Assembly: GCA_018889975.1 (NCBI GenBank)
Contig: CP076546.1
Coordinates: 3,596,001-3,660,000 of the forward strand
Source: Bacillus sp. NP157
Lineage (GTDB): Bacteria; Pseudomonadota; Gammaproteobacteria; Xanthomonadales; Rhodanobacteraceae
Length of the DNA: 64,000 nucleotides
Reading direction: 5' to 3'
The notes beneath the pieces are model-generated. The model was not told the DNA's origin. It was given only the letters and a program-made list of their open reading frames with translations, and did no database searches. Each line of letters starts with the position of its first letter. Position 1 is the stretch's first letter. Below are positions 18,187 through 24,010 of the stretch, piece after piece. Made by a program: the position numbers and the translations under genes.

Positions 18187-18204
18187 ATCTACTAAAGATG
18201 TAGT
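18187..18204. promoter_or_regulatory. BlaI-type operator box 1
   Basis: Contains ACTA-N6-TAGT (18191-18204) inside a longer imperfect dyad, overlapping the first base of the -35 hexamer of the following promoter. The TACTA/TAGTA core fits known BlaI/MecI boxes. Confidence 0.65.
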
Positions 18205-18232
18205 TGACAAGCGTGGCACCCCGGCCTATATC
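18204..18232 (+). promoter_or_regulatory. Sigma-70 promoter of the blaI-like operon
   Basis: TTGACA (18204-18209), 17-base spacer, TATATC (18227-18232): near-consensus and rare for this GC-rich window. It is flanked by the two BlaI-type boxes, so repressor binding would block the polymerase. Confidence 0.75.
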
Positions 18233-18251
18233 TACTACATCTCTAGTAGAT
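18230..18251. promoter_or_regulatory. BlaI-type operator box 2
   Basis: Perfect eight-base arms ATCTACTA (18230-18237) and TAGTAGAT (18244-18251) around six bases; the inner part is ACTA-N6-TAGT as in box 1. It covers the -10 element and the expected transcription start. Confidence 0.75.
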
Positions 18252-18269
18252 AGAAGCCGGGGTCCACCT

Positions 18270-18644
18270 ATGAAGATCTCGCTCACCGACCGCGAGGCGG
18301 ACATCATGCAGGTGCTGTGGGAACACGGCCCTTCGCTTGTCTCCGACGTCCGCGAACGCCTCACCGACAAGCTCGCGTACACGACCGTGCTTACCGTGCT
18401 GCGTACCCTGCAAGCGAAGGGCTACGTCGGCTACGAGGAAGAAGGGCGCGGGCATCGCTATTTCGCCAGCGTGAAGCAACAGGTGGCGCGCAAGAACGCC
18501 CTCCAGCACCTGACGGACAAGCTTTTCAAGGGTTCCACCGAGCTGCTGCTCACCCACCTGGTGTCGGAGCAGAAGCTCAGCAAAGAGCAGATCGCGCGCA
18601 TGCGCAGGTTGCTTTCCGAGGGGACCGGCAAGGAGAAGCCGTGA
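18270..18644 (+). CDS. blaI: BlaI/MecI-family repressor
   Basis: 124 aa from ATG 18270. ISLTDREADIMQVLWEHGPS and the winged helix VRERLTDKLAYTTVLTVLRT are characteristic of BlaI/MecI/CopY regulators, as is the C-terminal leucine-rich dimerisation half. These repressors are destroyed by a BlaR1-type protease upon signal, opening their own operon. The two dyads and the strong promoter just upstream support autoregulation. Its stop overlaps the next start (GTGATG). Confidence 0.92.
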   Translation: MKISLTDREADIMQVLWEHGPSLVSDVRERLTDKLAYTTVLTVLRTLQAKGYVGYEEEGRGHRYFASVKQQVARKNALQHLTDKLFKGSTELLLTHLVSEQKLSKEQIARMRRLLSEGTGKEKP

Positions 18645-20206
18645 TGCTCGCCTGGATGATCTACGCCTTGCTGGTCGCGCTCGCGATCAGTGCGGCGGCC
18701 CTCCTCGCCGAGCAGGCGGCCAAGGCCGGCCAGCGGCCCACGCGCTGGCCGTGGCTGGTGGCCAGCGCAGCCTCCCTGCTCCTTCCGGTGGTCATGGCCA
18801 CGGTGTCGATCGCGATTCCCGGACCGCACGGCTCCACGGCACCCAGCGCGCCACTCGCGTTGCGTGAGACGACCTCGATACCCCTCGCCTCGCGCGTGAT
18901 CGACTGGAGCGGCACGAAGGCGTACACGTCATCCACGACGGTCGACGCGATCCTCGCGGATACGTGGATGGCGAGTTCGTTCACCCTGCTGTTGTTCGTG
19001 GGCATGGGCACCGCGTTGTTCCAACGACGCAAGCGGCAGTGGACCCACGGGCAGCTGTGCGATGTCCCCGTACTGGTCTCCGATCGGGTGGGCCCGGCCG
19101 TCGTCGGCCTGATCCATTCGCGGATCGTCGTCCCGGCGTGGGTCATGCAGGAGTCGCCCGCCCAGCAACGCTACGTCATGGCGCACGAGCAGTCGCACCT
19201 GCAGGCACGGGATCCACTACTCGTCGTCGCGGCCCTGGCCTTGCTGGTGGCCATGCCATGGAATCCCTTGCTGTGGTGGCAGTTCCATCGCCTTCGCCGG
19301 GCGATCGAGGTGGACTGCGACGCCCGGGTGCTCAAAGGCGGCGGCGACCTGGGCGAATACTGCGAGACGCTGATCCAGGTCGGGCAAAACCAGTCCGAGT
19401 TCATCGGGTCGGTCACCGCCATGTCGGAGTCGAAGTCTTTTCTCGAACAGAGGATAAGGATCATGCTGATGAAACCGAAGAAGTTGGCTGGTGCGTTCGC
19501 TTTCGTCCTGGTCAGCGTCGCGCTCGGCATGGCGGTGTTCGCCGCGCAGGTCACGCCACCCGCCCGCGCTACCGCGGCGGCGAACGGCACGATGGCGATC
19601 GATCCTGCGCTGCTCGATGCCTACGCCGGCGAATACCAGCTCAGCGATTACTCGCTGGTGACCGTCGCACGAAAGGGCGATGGGCTGACCGTCACGCCGA
19701 TCGGCCAGTTCATGGCCCAGGGCACGATCGATGCGCCCACGCTCAGCGATAGCGAGTTCGCGATTCCGAGCCTCGACGCCCGGCTGAAGTTCAGCAAAGG
19801 CGCCAGTGGCCAGGGCAGCACCATGGACGTGTACATCCACAACTGGCCCGCGGCGACGGCACATCGCGTGGATGACGCGACCGCATCCCAGGTTCGCCGC
19901 GACCTGGCGGCAAGGGTCAAGGCCCAGGCCGCGTACCCCGATAGCGAACGTGCACTCCGCCAGGTCCTGTCCAATACCGACGACCCGTCGCTGACGTCGC
20001 CCTACTCGACGAGCCCGCCCGTCGACCATGCGTCGCTGCGCGGCTACTACGCCCAGCTTGGTCCGGTGGAGTCGTATCGCTTCGAGGGTGTCACGAACTA
20101 TGGCTGGGACATCTACGACGTGCAGCACGCGCACGGCGCGGAACAGGTGTTCATCCAGCTCGACAAGAAGGGCCTGATCGTCAGCTCGATCATGCGTCGC
20201 CAGTAG
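18644..20206 (+). CDS. BlaR1/MecR1-like M56 membrane metallopeptidase with atypical C-terminus
   Basis: 520 aa from the ATG at 18644, AAGGAGAAG before it. N-terminal membrane helices (MIYALLVALAISAAALLAE, LVASAASLLLPVVM, SSFTLLLFVGMGTALF) lead to the zinc-protease signature MAHEQSHLQARDP; HEQSH is residues 181-185. A further helix (about 272-300) passes the membrane. In BlaR1 the outer domain is a penicillin-binding transpeptidase fold with SxxK; here the last about 220 residues lack SxxK and instead open with LDAYAGEYQLSD and LTVTPIGQ, like the DUF3471 domain seen at the ends of serine hydrolases. It should sense something other than a covalent beta-lactam and cleave the BlaI-like repressor. 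Confidence 0.85.
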   Translation: MLAWMIYALLVALAISAAALLAEQAAKAGQRPTRWPWLVASAASLLLPVVMATVSIAIPGPHGSTAPSAPLALRETTSIPLASRVIDWSGTKAYTSSTTVDAILADTWMASSFTLLLFVGMGTALFQRRKRQWTHGQLCDVPVLVSDRVGPAVVGLIHSRIVVPAWVMQESPAQQRYVMAHEQSHLQARDPLLVVAALALLVAMPWNPLLWWQFHRLRRAIEVDCDARVLKGGGDLGEYCETLIQVGQNQSEFIGSVTAMSESKSFLEQRIRIMLMKPKKLAGAFAFVLVSVALGMAVFAAQVTPPARATAAANGTMAIDPALLDAYAGEYQLSDYSLVTVARKGDGLTVTPIGQFMAQGTIDAPTLSDSEFAIPSLDARLKFSKGASGQGSTMDVYIHNWPAATAHRVDDATASQVRRDLAARVKAQAAYPDSERALRQVLSNTDDPSLTSPYSTSPPVDHASLRGYYAQLGPVESYRFEGVTNYGWDIYDVQHAHGAEQVFIQLDKKGLIVSSIMRRQ

Positions 20207-20239
20207 CGCGGGCAAGCCATCAACCAGAGGGAACGACCG

Positions 20240-21751
20240 ATGCGAAGGATCAAACGATTCATTTTGCAGGGCACCGCCGTGCTCGTTGCCGGCGCGACCA
20301 TGCCGGTTTTCGCGCAGAAGGCGGGTTGCCCTGCGCCGGCCGAAACGGCAGGTGGCCCGAGCAATGCGCACACGCGCTATGTCGAGTCACATATGCTGCC
20401 GGCCGTGCTGGGCCACGGTGAGAAGCCGTCGACGCTGGCCGACCACATGCAGCGATACGGCGTGCCCGGCATCAGCGTGGCAGTGATCCACAAGGGCAAG
20501 CTGGATTGGGCCCGGGGATGGGGCGTGCGCGACGTCGCGACGTGTGCGCCGGTGACACCGGATACCGCGTTCCAGGCGGCATCGATCAGCAAGACCGTGA
20601 CGGCGCTGCTCGCCCTGCGGCTGGTCGAACAGGGCACGATCGGCCTGGACAAAGACATCAACGATGCGTTGCGCTCGTGGCAGCTGCCGAAGGATCCGAA
20701 GCTGGCACCCAACGGGGTCACCCTGCGCCAGCTGCTGAGCCACACCGCTGGGCTGGGCGTACATGGCTTCAACGGGTACCTGCCGGGTGTCCCGCTTCCT
20801 ACCACCGTGCAGATCCTCGATGGCGTGCCGCCGAGTACCAGCGGCCCCGTACGCAGCATCCTGCCGGCTGGCGCCCAGTTCGAATACTCCGGCGGCGGCT
20901 ACGTGGTGGCGCAACTAGCGCTCGCCGATGCGAGCGGCCAGCCGTTCGAGGCACTGGCCCAGCGCGAGGTGCTCGGCCCGCTCGGCATGACCCGCAGCGC
21001 GTTCGCCCAACCGCCGTCACCCGCCATCCTCGCCAACATGGCGTTCGGTTATGAAAACGGCGCCGCGATCCCGGGCAACTACGAAGTCGACCCCGAACTC
21101 GCGCCGGCGGGCTTATGGACCACCGCCAGCGACCTAGCCCGCGTGGTGATCGATATCCAGGCCGCGGCCGCGGGCGCGGCCGGGCATCGTATCTCGCCCG
21201 CCATGGCGCGGCAGATGCTGACCCCGGTGAAGGACAACTGGGGCCTGGGCGTCGCCCTGTACCCGGATGCGCCGACGCGCTTTACCCACGACGGCATCAA
21301 CCGCGGGTTCCGCACCCTGATGATCGGCTACGCGGGCAAGGGCGAAGGCATCGTCGTGCTGAGCAACACCAGCCAGGGCCGTGGACTGATGGATGAAGTG
21401 GTGCGGGCCGTCGCCACCGACTACGGCTGGACGGGCATGGCGGTACCGGCGGTCGAGCCGCAACACCTGTCGCTCGCCGAGCTTTCCAGGGCTGCCGGGC
21501 GCTTCGTGGGTGGCGGCCTGGACGTGACGATCGAGGCGCGCCCGGACGGCCTCTACGCCAGCGCCGGGGGCCCGTCCCCCGAGCACCTGGTCGCCCTGTC
21601 ACCCAGGCGCTTCCGTTCCGATTCCCTGGGCGTCACGGCGGAGTTCGCCCCTGATTTCTCGAGCATCGTCTTCGTCGAAGGCGGCCCGCCGATGAAGCTG
21701 GTCCGCGTCGCACCGGCGCCGCCTCAGCCGAAGGCAAGCTCGCCGCCGTAG
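20240..21751 (+). CDS. Beta-lactamase-fold serine hydrolase (class C / PBP4* type), exported
   Basis: 503 aa with an N-terminal signal (FILQGTAVLVAGATMPVFAQ). The catalytic S115-x-x-K118 is in FQAASISKTVTALLALRLVE; the second motif is YSGGGY where YSN or YAN is usual. HTAGLGVHGF and the closing FTHDGINRGFRTLMIGY fit the family. Such proteins are peptidases, esterases or beta-lactamases acting in the periplasm. It follows the BlaR1-like gene by 33 bases and is the presumed regulated target. The last 110 residues form a small beta domain resembling the C-terminal part of the BlaR1-like protein. The 3' end overlaps the convergent fusion gene by 28 bases. Confidence 0.87.
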   Translation: MRRIKRFILQGTAVLVAGATMPVFAQKAGCPAPAETAGGPSNAHTRYVESHMLPAVLGHGEKPSTLADHMQRYGVPGISVAVIHKGKLDWARGWGVRDVATCAPVTPDTAFQAASISKTVTALLALRLVEQGTIGLDKDINDALRSWQLPKDPKLAPNGVTLRQLLSHTAGLGVHGFNGYLPGVPLPTTVQILDGVPPSTSGPVRSILPAGAQFEYSGGGYVVAQLALADASGQPFEALAQREVLGPLGMTRSAFAQPPSPAILANMAFGYENGAAIPGNYEVDPELAPAGLWTTASDLARVVIDIQAAAAGAAGHRISPAMARQMLTPVKDNWGLGVALYPDAPTRFTHDGINRGFRTLMIGYAGKGEGIVVLSNTSQGRGLMDEVVRAVATDYGWTGMAVPAVEPQHLSLAELSRAAGRFVGGGLDVTIEARPDGLYASAGGPSPEHLVALSPRRFRSDSLGVTAEFAPDFSSIVFVEGGPPMKLVRVAPAPPQPKASSPP

Positions 21752-23259
21752 CCACAACTCACGCGACGACCATCACACAGCTCGGCAACATCGGTCACGA
21801 AGTTGCCGAGCACGTGCTCGTTGCGCAACACCATCGACGGGATGTGCCAGAGACGCAGCGCATTGTCCTCGCCACACGTGGCCAGGCTTCCATCGCGCAT
21901 GAAGCGAACCCGCCGCACGGCGGCGGAGTGGGCCTTGAACGCCCCCGCCAGCGACATCGCGCCGCCTTCCATGCGCCAGAGCGTCACGCCGCCGCTTTCG
22001 TCGCCGACGGCGACATCGTAATCGCCCGGTTTGCCCGGCTTCGGAACGGCGTGCACCGTCCGCAACGGATTTCCAAGTGTTCGCTGCGCGATGCACTCGC
22101 CGCTATCCAGGTCCCAGAGACGCAGCGAGCCATCCTCCGATGCGCTCGCCACCGCGTGGTCACCGAGGCTTGCCACGCCCCAGACCCATCCCTGGTGTCC
22201 AGCGAGCGTTCGCAAGCGATCGCCGGCAACGGACCAGAGCTGGACCCGGTGATCCGCCCCGCCCGTCGCCAACACCTGCGGCGTCACCCGCGCGATCGAC
22301 AGCGCGGCGGCCTCGTGCGCCACTTCCGTCCGGAGGCACCGGCCCGACTCGACATCCCATACGCGTAGCCTGCGATCGCGAGACACGGAAGCAAGCACGC
22401 CTGGCTGGGCCTCGCAGAGACCCAGCACGGACTGGTCGTGCCCAGCGAGCGTCGCCGAATGGGATCCGTCGCCATGCCACAGGCGAATACGCCCGTCGCG
22501 GCCGCCGCTGGCCAGCCGGCCGTCTTGGAGCGCGGCGAGCGTCCAGATGTAGCCCAGGTGGTGTGGTGTCACGCCCGGGCATTCGCCACTCGCCCCGGCC
22601 CGCTCGAAGAGCAGGTCGCTGCGCAGCACATGCTTCACGCCGCGCGTCAGTGCCTCACCCGCGTGCCAGATGCCATGGTCGAACAGGATCAGGCTGCCGA
22701 TCCGCGGACGAAGGCGCGCGACGACGTCCTGGCCGTTCGAGGGTCCGGCCGCATAGAACAGCGTATCGCCGCCCTCGAAGGCGTCGCCGTCCGTGAGGTA
22801 GACCATGAACGTGAGCATGGAGCGACAGCCGTGGCCACGGTGATGGACCCCGTCCTGATGGATCCGGAACTGCTGCCCGGGCCGGTACCGGCACAGGCGG
22901 AGCCTCTCGTTGATGCCCTTCAATCGCCAATTGTCCCGTATATCCTGCGGCAGCATCGGTTCGATCGCCCCGTCGGCCAGCTCAGCAAGCCGACGCATCA
23001 GCCATGCCGCCAGCTCGGGATCGTCGATGACCTGGCGGTCGTTGTTCCGGTAGGACGGTGGGTAATCACGCTCGGCCGATTCGAACCCGCGCGCTTCGGC
23101 CCTGGCGACCAGCGCGTCGCATTCGGCAGGCGAAAGAAACCCGTGGATGACCGCGCAGGCGCCCAGCGACCGGGGCAGCGGGTGCTCAATGGCACGCCGG
23201 GCTTCCTCGCGCGGCGTGTGCCCGAACGTCGGGATCGATGTTTCGCAACCTTCGTCCAT
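21724..23259 (-). CDS. Prolyl 4-hydroxylase (2OG-Fe(II) oxygenase) fused to a WD40 propeller
   Basis: 511 aa from ATG 23259, preceded by AGGAGGCGGC; the longer reading from 23289 lacks a ribosome site. Residues about 35-215 are a P4H-type 2-oxoglutarate oxygenase: iron ligands H134-x-D136 (FRIHQDG) and H199 (IWHAGEAL), with K209 of GVKHVLRSD positioned to bind 2-oxoglutarate. From about residue 225 to the end come six or seven WD40-like blades: LASGGRDGRIRLWHGDG, LASVSRDRRLRVWDVESG, LATGGADHRVQLWSV, VASASEDGSLRLWDLDSG and LATCGEDNALRLWHI. No signal peptide, so it is cytoplasmic. The propeller probably presents the protein substrate. It diverges from a TetR gene. Confidence 0.88.
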   Translation of the reverse strand: MDEGCETSIPTFGHTPREEARRAIEHPLPRSLGACAVIHGFLSPAECDALVARAEARGFESAERDYPPSYRNNDRQVIDDPELAAWLMRRLAELADGAIEPMLPQDIRDNWRLKGINERLRLCRYRPGQQFRIHQDGVHHRGHGCRSMLTFMVYLTDGDAFEGGDTLFYAAGPSNGQDVVARLRPRIGSLILFDHGIWHAGEALTRGVKHVLRSDLLFERAGASGECPGVTPHHLGYIWTLAALQDGRLASGGRDGRIRLWHGDGSHSATLAGHDQSVLGLCEAQPGVLASVSRDRRLRVWDVESGRCLRTEVAHEAAALSIARVTPQVLATGGADHRVQLWSVAGDRLRTLAGHQGWVWGVASLGDHAVASASEDGSLRLWDLDSGECIAQRTLGNPLRTVHAVPKPGKPGDYDVAVGDESGGVTLWRMEGGAMSLAGAFKAHSAAVRRVRFMRDGSLATCGEDNALRLWHIPSMVLRNEHVLGNFVTDVAELCDGRRVSCGYGGELAFG

Positions 23260-23273
23260 GCCGCCTCCTATTA

Positions 23274-23289
23274 TTGGTCGACCATCCAA
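23274..23289. promoter_or_regulatory. Putative TetR operator 1 (TTGG-N8-CCAA)
   Basis: Dyad TTGG-TCGACCAT-CCAA, extended by A/T on both sides (ATTGG...CCAAT), 15 bases before the start of the oxygenase-WD40 gene. The same pattern with the same spacing recurs at 23335-23350. Confidence 0.5.
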
Positions 23290-23334: not shown

Positions 23335-23350
23335 TTGGGTGTATAACCAA
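23335..23350. promoter_or_regulatory. Putative TetR operator 2 (TTGG-N8-CCAA)
   Basis: TTGG-GTGTATAA-CCAA, 19 bases before the TetR start codon and just upstream of its ribosome site AAAGGAGG. The centres of the two dyads are 61 bases apart, about six helical turns. Confidence 0.5.
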
Positions 23351-23368: not shown

Positions 23369-24010
23369 ATGCCGCGTAAACCGAACACCGAGCTTCGCCG
23401 CCAGCAGATCGTCGACGGGCTGCTCAAGGCGATGGCCGCGCAGGGTTACACCGGCGCCACGATCCAGGCGATCGCGAAAGCCGCCGGGCTCGCGCCGGGG
23501 CTGGTCCACTACCACTTCCACGACAAGCGGGAGATCCTCGTCGCGCTGGTCGAGCAGCTGACCGCTTATGCGTCGACCCGCTTCCAGTCGCGCGCGATAA
23601 CGGCGGCCACCGCGCATGACCGCCTGCGCGCCTACATCGACGCCCGCCTTGCCTACGGTGCCGACGCCAACCCCGACGCCGTGGCAGCGTGGGTGATGAT
23701 CGGCGCGGAAGCCGTGCGCGACCCGGATGTGCGCGAGGTTTACCAGCGCGTCGCCACCGCCGAGCTTTCACTTATCCGCAAGTTGCTCAGGGCATGCCTC
23801 GTGGAACGCGCAAAGCGCGTGCGCAAGCTGGATGCATTCGCCGCGGCGTTGCTCGCCTTCATCGAAGGCGCGTTCGTCCTGGCGAGCAATGCCCGATCCG
23901 TCGTTCCCGCTGGATTCGCCGCCGACATGGCCAACGAACTGGTCGAGCGCTACATCGCTGGCGAAGCATCGACGGCTACCTTGCGCAAATCCCAGGAGAG
24001 CAGGCCATGA
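23369..24010 (+). CDS. TetR-family transcriptional regulator (BetI-like)
   Basis: 213 aa from ATG 23369, chosen for AAAGGAGGGCC just upstream; an earlier in-frame ATG at 23339 would lie inside the operator-like dyad. The helix-turn-helix is YTGATIQAIAKAAGLAPGLVHYHFHDKREIL at residues about 26-56, with the classic HYHF recognition-helix end. The C-terminal ligand domain is typical length and resembles BetI-type regulators (AWVMIGAEAVRDPDVREVY). The divergent gene arrangement and shared dyads suggest it represses itself and the oxygenase-WD40 gene. Confidence 0.9.
   Translation: MPRKPNTELRRQQIVDGLLKAMAAQGYTGATIQAIAKAAGLAPGLVHYHFHDKREILVALVEQLTAYASTRFQSRAITAATAHDRLRAYIDARLAYGADANPDAVAAWVMIGAEAVRDPDVREVYQRVATAELSLIRKLLRACLVERAKRVRKLDAFAAALLAFIEGAFVLASNARSVVPAGFAADMANELVERYIAGEASTATLRKSQESRP

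Follow-up and report, generated by a model that had tools for sequence, protein, structure and literature searches.

A 2-oxoglutarate oxygenase fused to a WD40 propeller in a two-gene module with a TetR-type regulator

In the stretch of DNA analysed here (64,000 nucleotides, hereafter the window), a gene on the minus strand (21724..23259) encodes a 511-residue protein in which a 2-oxoglutarate (2OG)/Fe(II) oxygenase is joined to a WD40 propeller, and a divergent neighbouring gene encodes a TetR-type regulator. This is a new domain architecture made of known parts, and it lies in a self-contained two-gene module. We hypothesize, with slightly better than even confidence, that the module is autoregulated and that the propeller docks a specific partner and presents a peptide to the oxygenase.

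Structure and distribution of the fusion gene

The open reading frame of the fusion runs from an ATG at 23259 on the minus strand to a stop codon that ends at 21724, and a Shine-Dalgarno sequence (AGGAGG; 23264..23269, minus strand) lies a few bases 5' of the ATG. The first-pass annotation of this DNA had the coordinates right; reading frame and translation correct its strand to minus, and the plus strand across 21724-23259 is interrupted by a stop. Searches of about 1,700 genomes recovered eight further full-length copies (45-63% identical), which gave an alignment of nine full-length orthologues. Because eight further genomes encode the identical one-frame architecture, the fusion is neither a chance join nor an assembly join, and these independent copies exclude a frameshift artefact as well. 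They bear out the annotation's argument that the AGGAGG start and uninterrupted frame speak against assembly error. The survey of homologues that it had proposed found the fusion unsplit and the adjoining TetR gene kept in all nine full-length loci.

Full-length fusions were found in 6 of the 233 genomes of the family, spread over six genera (the window's own included), and outside the family in Chitinimonas taiwanensis and two relatives. No further full-length copy was found in evenly drawn samples of the class (369 genomes, with the oxygenase half as query) and of the phylum (398 genomes) or among 250 relatives of Chitinimonas, and the fusion was absent from 22 other sampled members of the window's genus. 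Another genome, of a genus that also contains a fusion-bearing species, carries only a decayed C-terminal relict of the fusion's last blades (G585; L061, 7020-7226) that contains a stop and has no TetR gene.

Several signs of acquisition were sought and none was seen. IMG/VR contigs held no relative of the fusion that would indicate a viral origin, and no plasmid record covered 80% of the query, the matches being generic WD40 proteins. Base composition gave no signal of recent foreign DNA (GC 0.681 for the fusion, 0.670 for TetR and 0.664 for the window), and the search for an empty site in sister species found the flanking genes in the genus far apart, with no clean site.

Across the copies, identities of the oxygenase and WD40 halves correlate (r = 0.88); the halves diverge in step, as expected if they were joined once and then kept together. 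Identities of the fusion and of TetR also correlate (r = 0.89). From these comparisons, the two halves, and the fusion with its TetR, appear to evolve as one unit.

A domain search, likewise proposed in the first-pass annotation, placed PF13640 over the oxygenase half and WD40 repeats (PF00400) over the second half, and both domains are present in the predicted structure; the fusion is thus real. AlphaFold2, run on the full-length protein with the nine orthologues as alignment, gave a mean pLDDT of 87 and a pTM of 0.82. In this model residues 1-19 form a disordered N-terminus and residues 225-231 are a low-confidence stretch. The linker between oxygenase and propeller is about 13 residues long.

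The oxygenase domain and the propeller

The oxygenase domain spans residues 25-220 (22600..23187, minus strand). PF13640 (2OG-Fe(II) oxygenase) matched residues 122-209 with 39.7 bits, above the superfamily cut-off of 27. The translation contains an HxD iron-ligand motif, H134-Q-D136 (22852..22860, minus strand), that aligns with that of a solved viral prolyl-4-hydroxylase (P4H), followed by the second iron-ligand histidine, H199 (22663..22665, minus strand). Ten residues past H199 is K209 (22633..22635, minus strand), which, from what is known of P4Hs, we take to be the residue that binds the 2OG carboxylate. All four residues had been read correctly in the first pass, and all are invariant in 13 proteins (i.e., the nine fusions and four single-domain relatives).

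For fold searches the oxygenase domain was folded alone (pLDDT 90.6). Foldseek matched this model to the PBCV-1 collagen prolyl hydroxylase, algal P4H, Bacillus anthracis P4H, PHD2 and Pseudomonas putida P4H, the last including its complex with EF-Tu. By VIA-align, algal P4H falls in one Z range (15-19) with a Shewanella oxygenase, PiuC and LH3. P4Hs match at Z 15-18 and the P4H and PHD structures together at Z 15-19, which places the model in the double-stranded beta-helix fold, and the best PDB matches are P4Hs of algal, viral and bacterial origin. The predicted fold is thus that of the peptidyl hydroxylases. Neighbours that act on peptides or proteins include the Chlamydomonas reinhardtii P4H with (Ser-Pro)5 and the P. 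putida P4H with EF-Tu; OGFOD1 and Tpa1 were also matched, and a phmmer search against known structures returned P4Hs only, weakly (E 0.0004-0.002). Because PiuC, LH3, PolD and PasI, oxygenases other than prolyl hydroxylases, stand beside P4Hs among the fold neighbours, the target residue does not follow from the fold by itself. The PKHD-type hydroxylases YbiX/PiuC (3dkq, 9qn4) share the fold at Z 18-19; membership in that family was rejected, as the NCBIfam equivalog scored 21 bits vs a cut-off of 143.

The closest solved P4Hs share with the fusion the double-stranded beta-helix fold, the HxD...H iron triad and a basic 2OG residue past the second histidine (P. putida PPHD, 4iw3; B. anthracis P4H, 3itq; C. 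reinhardtii P4H-1, 3gze; PBCV-1 vCPH, 5c5t). The solved structures of these four are of catalytic domains that have no propeller, whereas the fusion adds a C-terminal WD40 domain and a YPPSYR loop. The YPPSYR stretch (residues 66-71) is invariant in the fusion clade and directly precedes a conserved N73-x-R75, while the four aligned single-domain relatives lack it and have a longer, variable loop instead. P4Hs have a flexible finger loop that encloses the substrate (PMC6235002), and YPPSYR falls in the region of that loop and may be its equivalent.

As the first pass had expected of bacterial P4H-like enzymes, the nearest proteins to the oxygenase half outside the clade, among those with loci that we read, have a single domain. 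These PF13640 oxygenases (L065, L066, L067 and L006, with a conserved RNN motif) are 36-39% identical over the oxygenase domain and share the catalytic residues of the fusion; they have no propeller, no TetR partner was seen beside them, and their neighbourhoods vary. Two of them (L065, 7696-8271; L066, 5128-5685) gave sub-threshold matches to poxvirus C4/C10 (PF03336), a weak hint in the sequences of shared ancestry or fold.

The second half of the fusion (residues 234-511; 21727..22560, minus strand) is predicted to form a seven-bladed WD40 propeller. PF00400 matched four repeats above its cut-off (103 bits, E 4e-30), and the AlphaFold2 model contains 27 strands, i.e., six four-stranded blades and a last blade of three that lacks the fourth strand. 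The propeller expected from the first reading is therefore present, with seven blades rather than the five counted there. Structure prediction, which had been suggested as a check, yielded a complete propeller that matches seven-bladed WD40 structures at Z about 40; the best match was the WD40 domain of PkwA (5yzv; Z 40.3 over 274 residues, 1.7 A), and RACK1 was also matched.

In each blade of a WD40 protein, positions R1-2, R1 and D-1 are hotspots for contacts made by the top face (PMC3419727). We assigned these positions in the fusion from the blade pattern (in blade 5 a different turn leaves the D-1 slot ambiguous) and compared them with the 254 other propeller positions of the same nine proteins. 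Although the WD40 halves are only 35-61% identical across the nine fusions, 19 of the 21 top-face positions are identical in all of them, vs 40 of the 254 others (Fisher p = 2e-12). The ring is rich in aromatic residues (Y237, W239, W358, W360, F487 and Y504), four arginines (R254, R294, R400 and R449) and two glutamates (E375 and E464). This conservation indirectly supports a docking face for one specific partner. It is the strongest support for the docking idea, and conservation does not fix the identity of the binder; the same pattern could equally reflect self-assembly or a regulator that is not a substrate.

The TetR partner and the intergenic palindromes

The divergent gene (23369..24010, plus strand) encodes a TetR/BetI-type repressor of 213 residues with PF00440 and PF13977 matches above cut-off. 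The TetR_N helix-turn-helix scored 43.3 bits (cut-off 24), which assigns the protein to the TetR family, and it fell below the BetI equivalogs of NCBIfam (76.8 vs a cut-off of 201.3, and 76.6 vs 118). A separate search for the TetR orthologue across the 233 family genomes recovered it from exactly the six whose fusion is intact; the remaining 227 lack it.

Each locus contains two TTGG-N8-CCAA palindromes, one beside the start of each gene, with starts 57-62 bp apart. In the window these operator-like sites are O1 (TTGGTCGACCATCCAA; 23274..23289), which has an equivalent in all nine loci, and O2 (TTGGGTGTATAACCAA; 23335..23350), which is exact in eight of the nine and degenerate in L060 (CTGG...CCAA). 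A pattern fitting both sites has two matches in the 4.88 Mb genome, both here, vs three for a reversed control pattern; as it was drawn from O1 and O2 themselves, looser sites may lie elsewhere. A simple scan of the shared promoter region returned no sigma-70-like promoter. That the same gene pair recurs in nine loci and that the operator pattern is confined to this intergenic region agree with the first-pass proposal of a dedicated TetR. The arrangement of genes and palindromes suggests that TetR may repress the fusion gene and regulate its own.

A proposed mechanism and its alternatives

In the mechanism we favour, TetR would bind the two palindromes, each just upstream of one gene's ribosome-binding site, and keep its own gene and that of the fusion repressed until a ligand releases it. 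The fusion, whose catalytic half has the prolyl-4-hydroxylase fold, would then act as a 2OG/Fe(II) oxygenase, and the top face of the linked propeller would bind one partner, most likely the substrate protein or a complex carrying it. Docking would bring a peptide into the active site for hydroxylation, most likely at a prolyl residue. Catalytic activity, a protein substrate, a prolyl target and a docking role are each presumed in this scheme, as is the identity of the docked partner with the hydroxylated substrate.

Three other readings were weighed against this one. The fusion may instead oxidize a small molecule that TetR also senses, with the propeller serving to oligomerise or anchor the enzyme in a detoxification or catabolic switch. 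BetI-type TetR regulators usually sense small molecules, and the regulator here has a BetI-type ligand domain; PolD, PasI and PiuC, among the fold neighbours, are not prolyl hydroxylases, and the single-domain relatives lie in unrelated neighbourhoods, so that no protein partner gene stands out. We nevertheless regard this reading as unlikely, given that a seven-bladed WD40 domain with an almost invariant contact face exceeds the needs of simple oligomerisation and that no transporter or catabolic gene beside the pair is conserved in the nine loci. The substrate could also be a housekeeping protein (for example, EF-Tu or a protein of the ribosome), and the WD40 domain could dock on the translation machinery. 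This reading would fit the matches to OGFOD1 and Tpa1, whose substrate is a ribosomal protein, and the match of the propeller to RACK1, a ribosome-bound WD40 protein. It would also fit the P. putida P4H structures among the best fold matches, as that enzyme hydroxylates Pro54 of EF-Tu (PMC6235002). EF-Tu, however, is universal, and the module has a very patchy distribution (6 of the 233 genomes of the family). The matches of the propeller are those that the fold in general would give, and sequence features pointing to EF-Tu are absent; we consider a housekeeping target quite improbable.

The module might also form a closed loop in which the fusion docks and hydroxylates its own TetR, e.g., at Pro5, making repression dependent on oxygen, iron and 2-oxoglutarate. 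No gene other than that for TetR adjoins the fusion in every locus, the two proteins diverge in step, and Pro5 of the N-terminal arm is invariant in the nine TetRs. Co-divergence is, however, expected of any linked pair, and the proline may be conserved solely for contact with DNA, and to us this is the least credible of the readings, with very little probability. Docking of a specific partner by the propeller remains our preferred explanation.

To our knowledge, protein substrates are known for few bacterial prolyl-hydroxylase-like enzymes, and identifying them has long been difficult. With its putative docking domain attached covalently and showing a nearly invariant contact face, the fusion would offer a bait for isolating the partner, and a compact two-gene module with defined operators would make induction and substrate directly testable.

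WD40 proteins partner prolyl hydroxylases in animals, where SWAN-1 pairs with EGL-9 (PMC2928816) and MORG1/WDR83 with PHD3 (PMC8954370, PMC10377003). Those pairs consist of two separate proteins, whereas the fusion is one chain, and they are likened here by their folds alone. It is conceivable, though very doubtful, that the fusion is a one-chain bacterial counterpart of these hydroxylase/scaffold pairs, i.e., a mobile, self-regulating sensor of oxygen, iron or 2-oxoglutarate that docks and hydroxylates one dedicated protein and feeds back. If so, the sensor would be horizontally mobile, and the modified protein could be its own TetR, with modification feeding back on transcription.

Among prokaryotes, the fusions of enzymes to WD40 domains that have been described are mainly kinases, including PkwA of Thermomonospora; a systematic survey of prokaryotic WD40 proteins does not mention oxygenase or hydroxylase fusions (PMC6113231, PMC5587647). 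PkwA, like the protein described here, joins an enzyme to a bacterial seven-bladed WD40 domain, the one that is our best fold match. The open-licence literature that we searched held no description of a bacterial P4H-WD40 fusion, and the single-chain architecture together with its dedicated regulator appears to be new there.

Some neighbouring genes were also recorded. In one genome (G642), a single-domain oxygenase relative lies inside an NAD salvage cluster (L067, 3264-12596) with nicotinamidase-like, nicotinate phosphoribosyltransferase, NAD synthase and NMN adenylyltransferase/Nudix genes, as well as macro domain, RNA 2'-phosphotransferase, ADP-ribosylglycohydrolase-like and Nudix-like genes. 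In another (G639), genes for NrtR and an ADP-ribosylglycohydrolase (L063, 4169-6736) are found about 3 kb or less from the fusion, and relatives of these two genes occur near the oxygenase of L067. A link to NAD or ADP-ribosylation was rejected, as it was seen at L067 and L063 and was absent from four further single-domain loci.

In four of the nine loci the fusion adjoins a gene for a small protein that carries HYH...HL and HD motifs (L057, 9209-9877; L063, 6107-6736; L064, 8006-8659; and L003, 3125-4477, in the second half of the frame). Judged by motif only, it is apparently an HD-type metal phosphohydrolase; the copy tested had no Pfam or NCBIfam match. It was rejected as an obligate third part of the module, as it is present in 4 of 9 loci and the window's genome has no homologue. 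In the window, immediately downstream of the gene for the fusion, genes on the plus strand (18204-21751) encode a BlaI/MecI-like repressor and a BlaR1/M56-like protease, both called from reading the open reading frames, and then a serine beta-lactamase-family protein (PF00144); together they form a possible antibiotic-sensing cassette.
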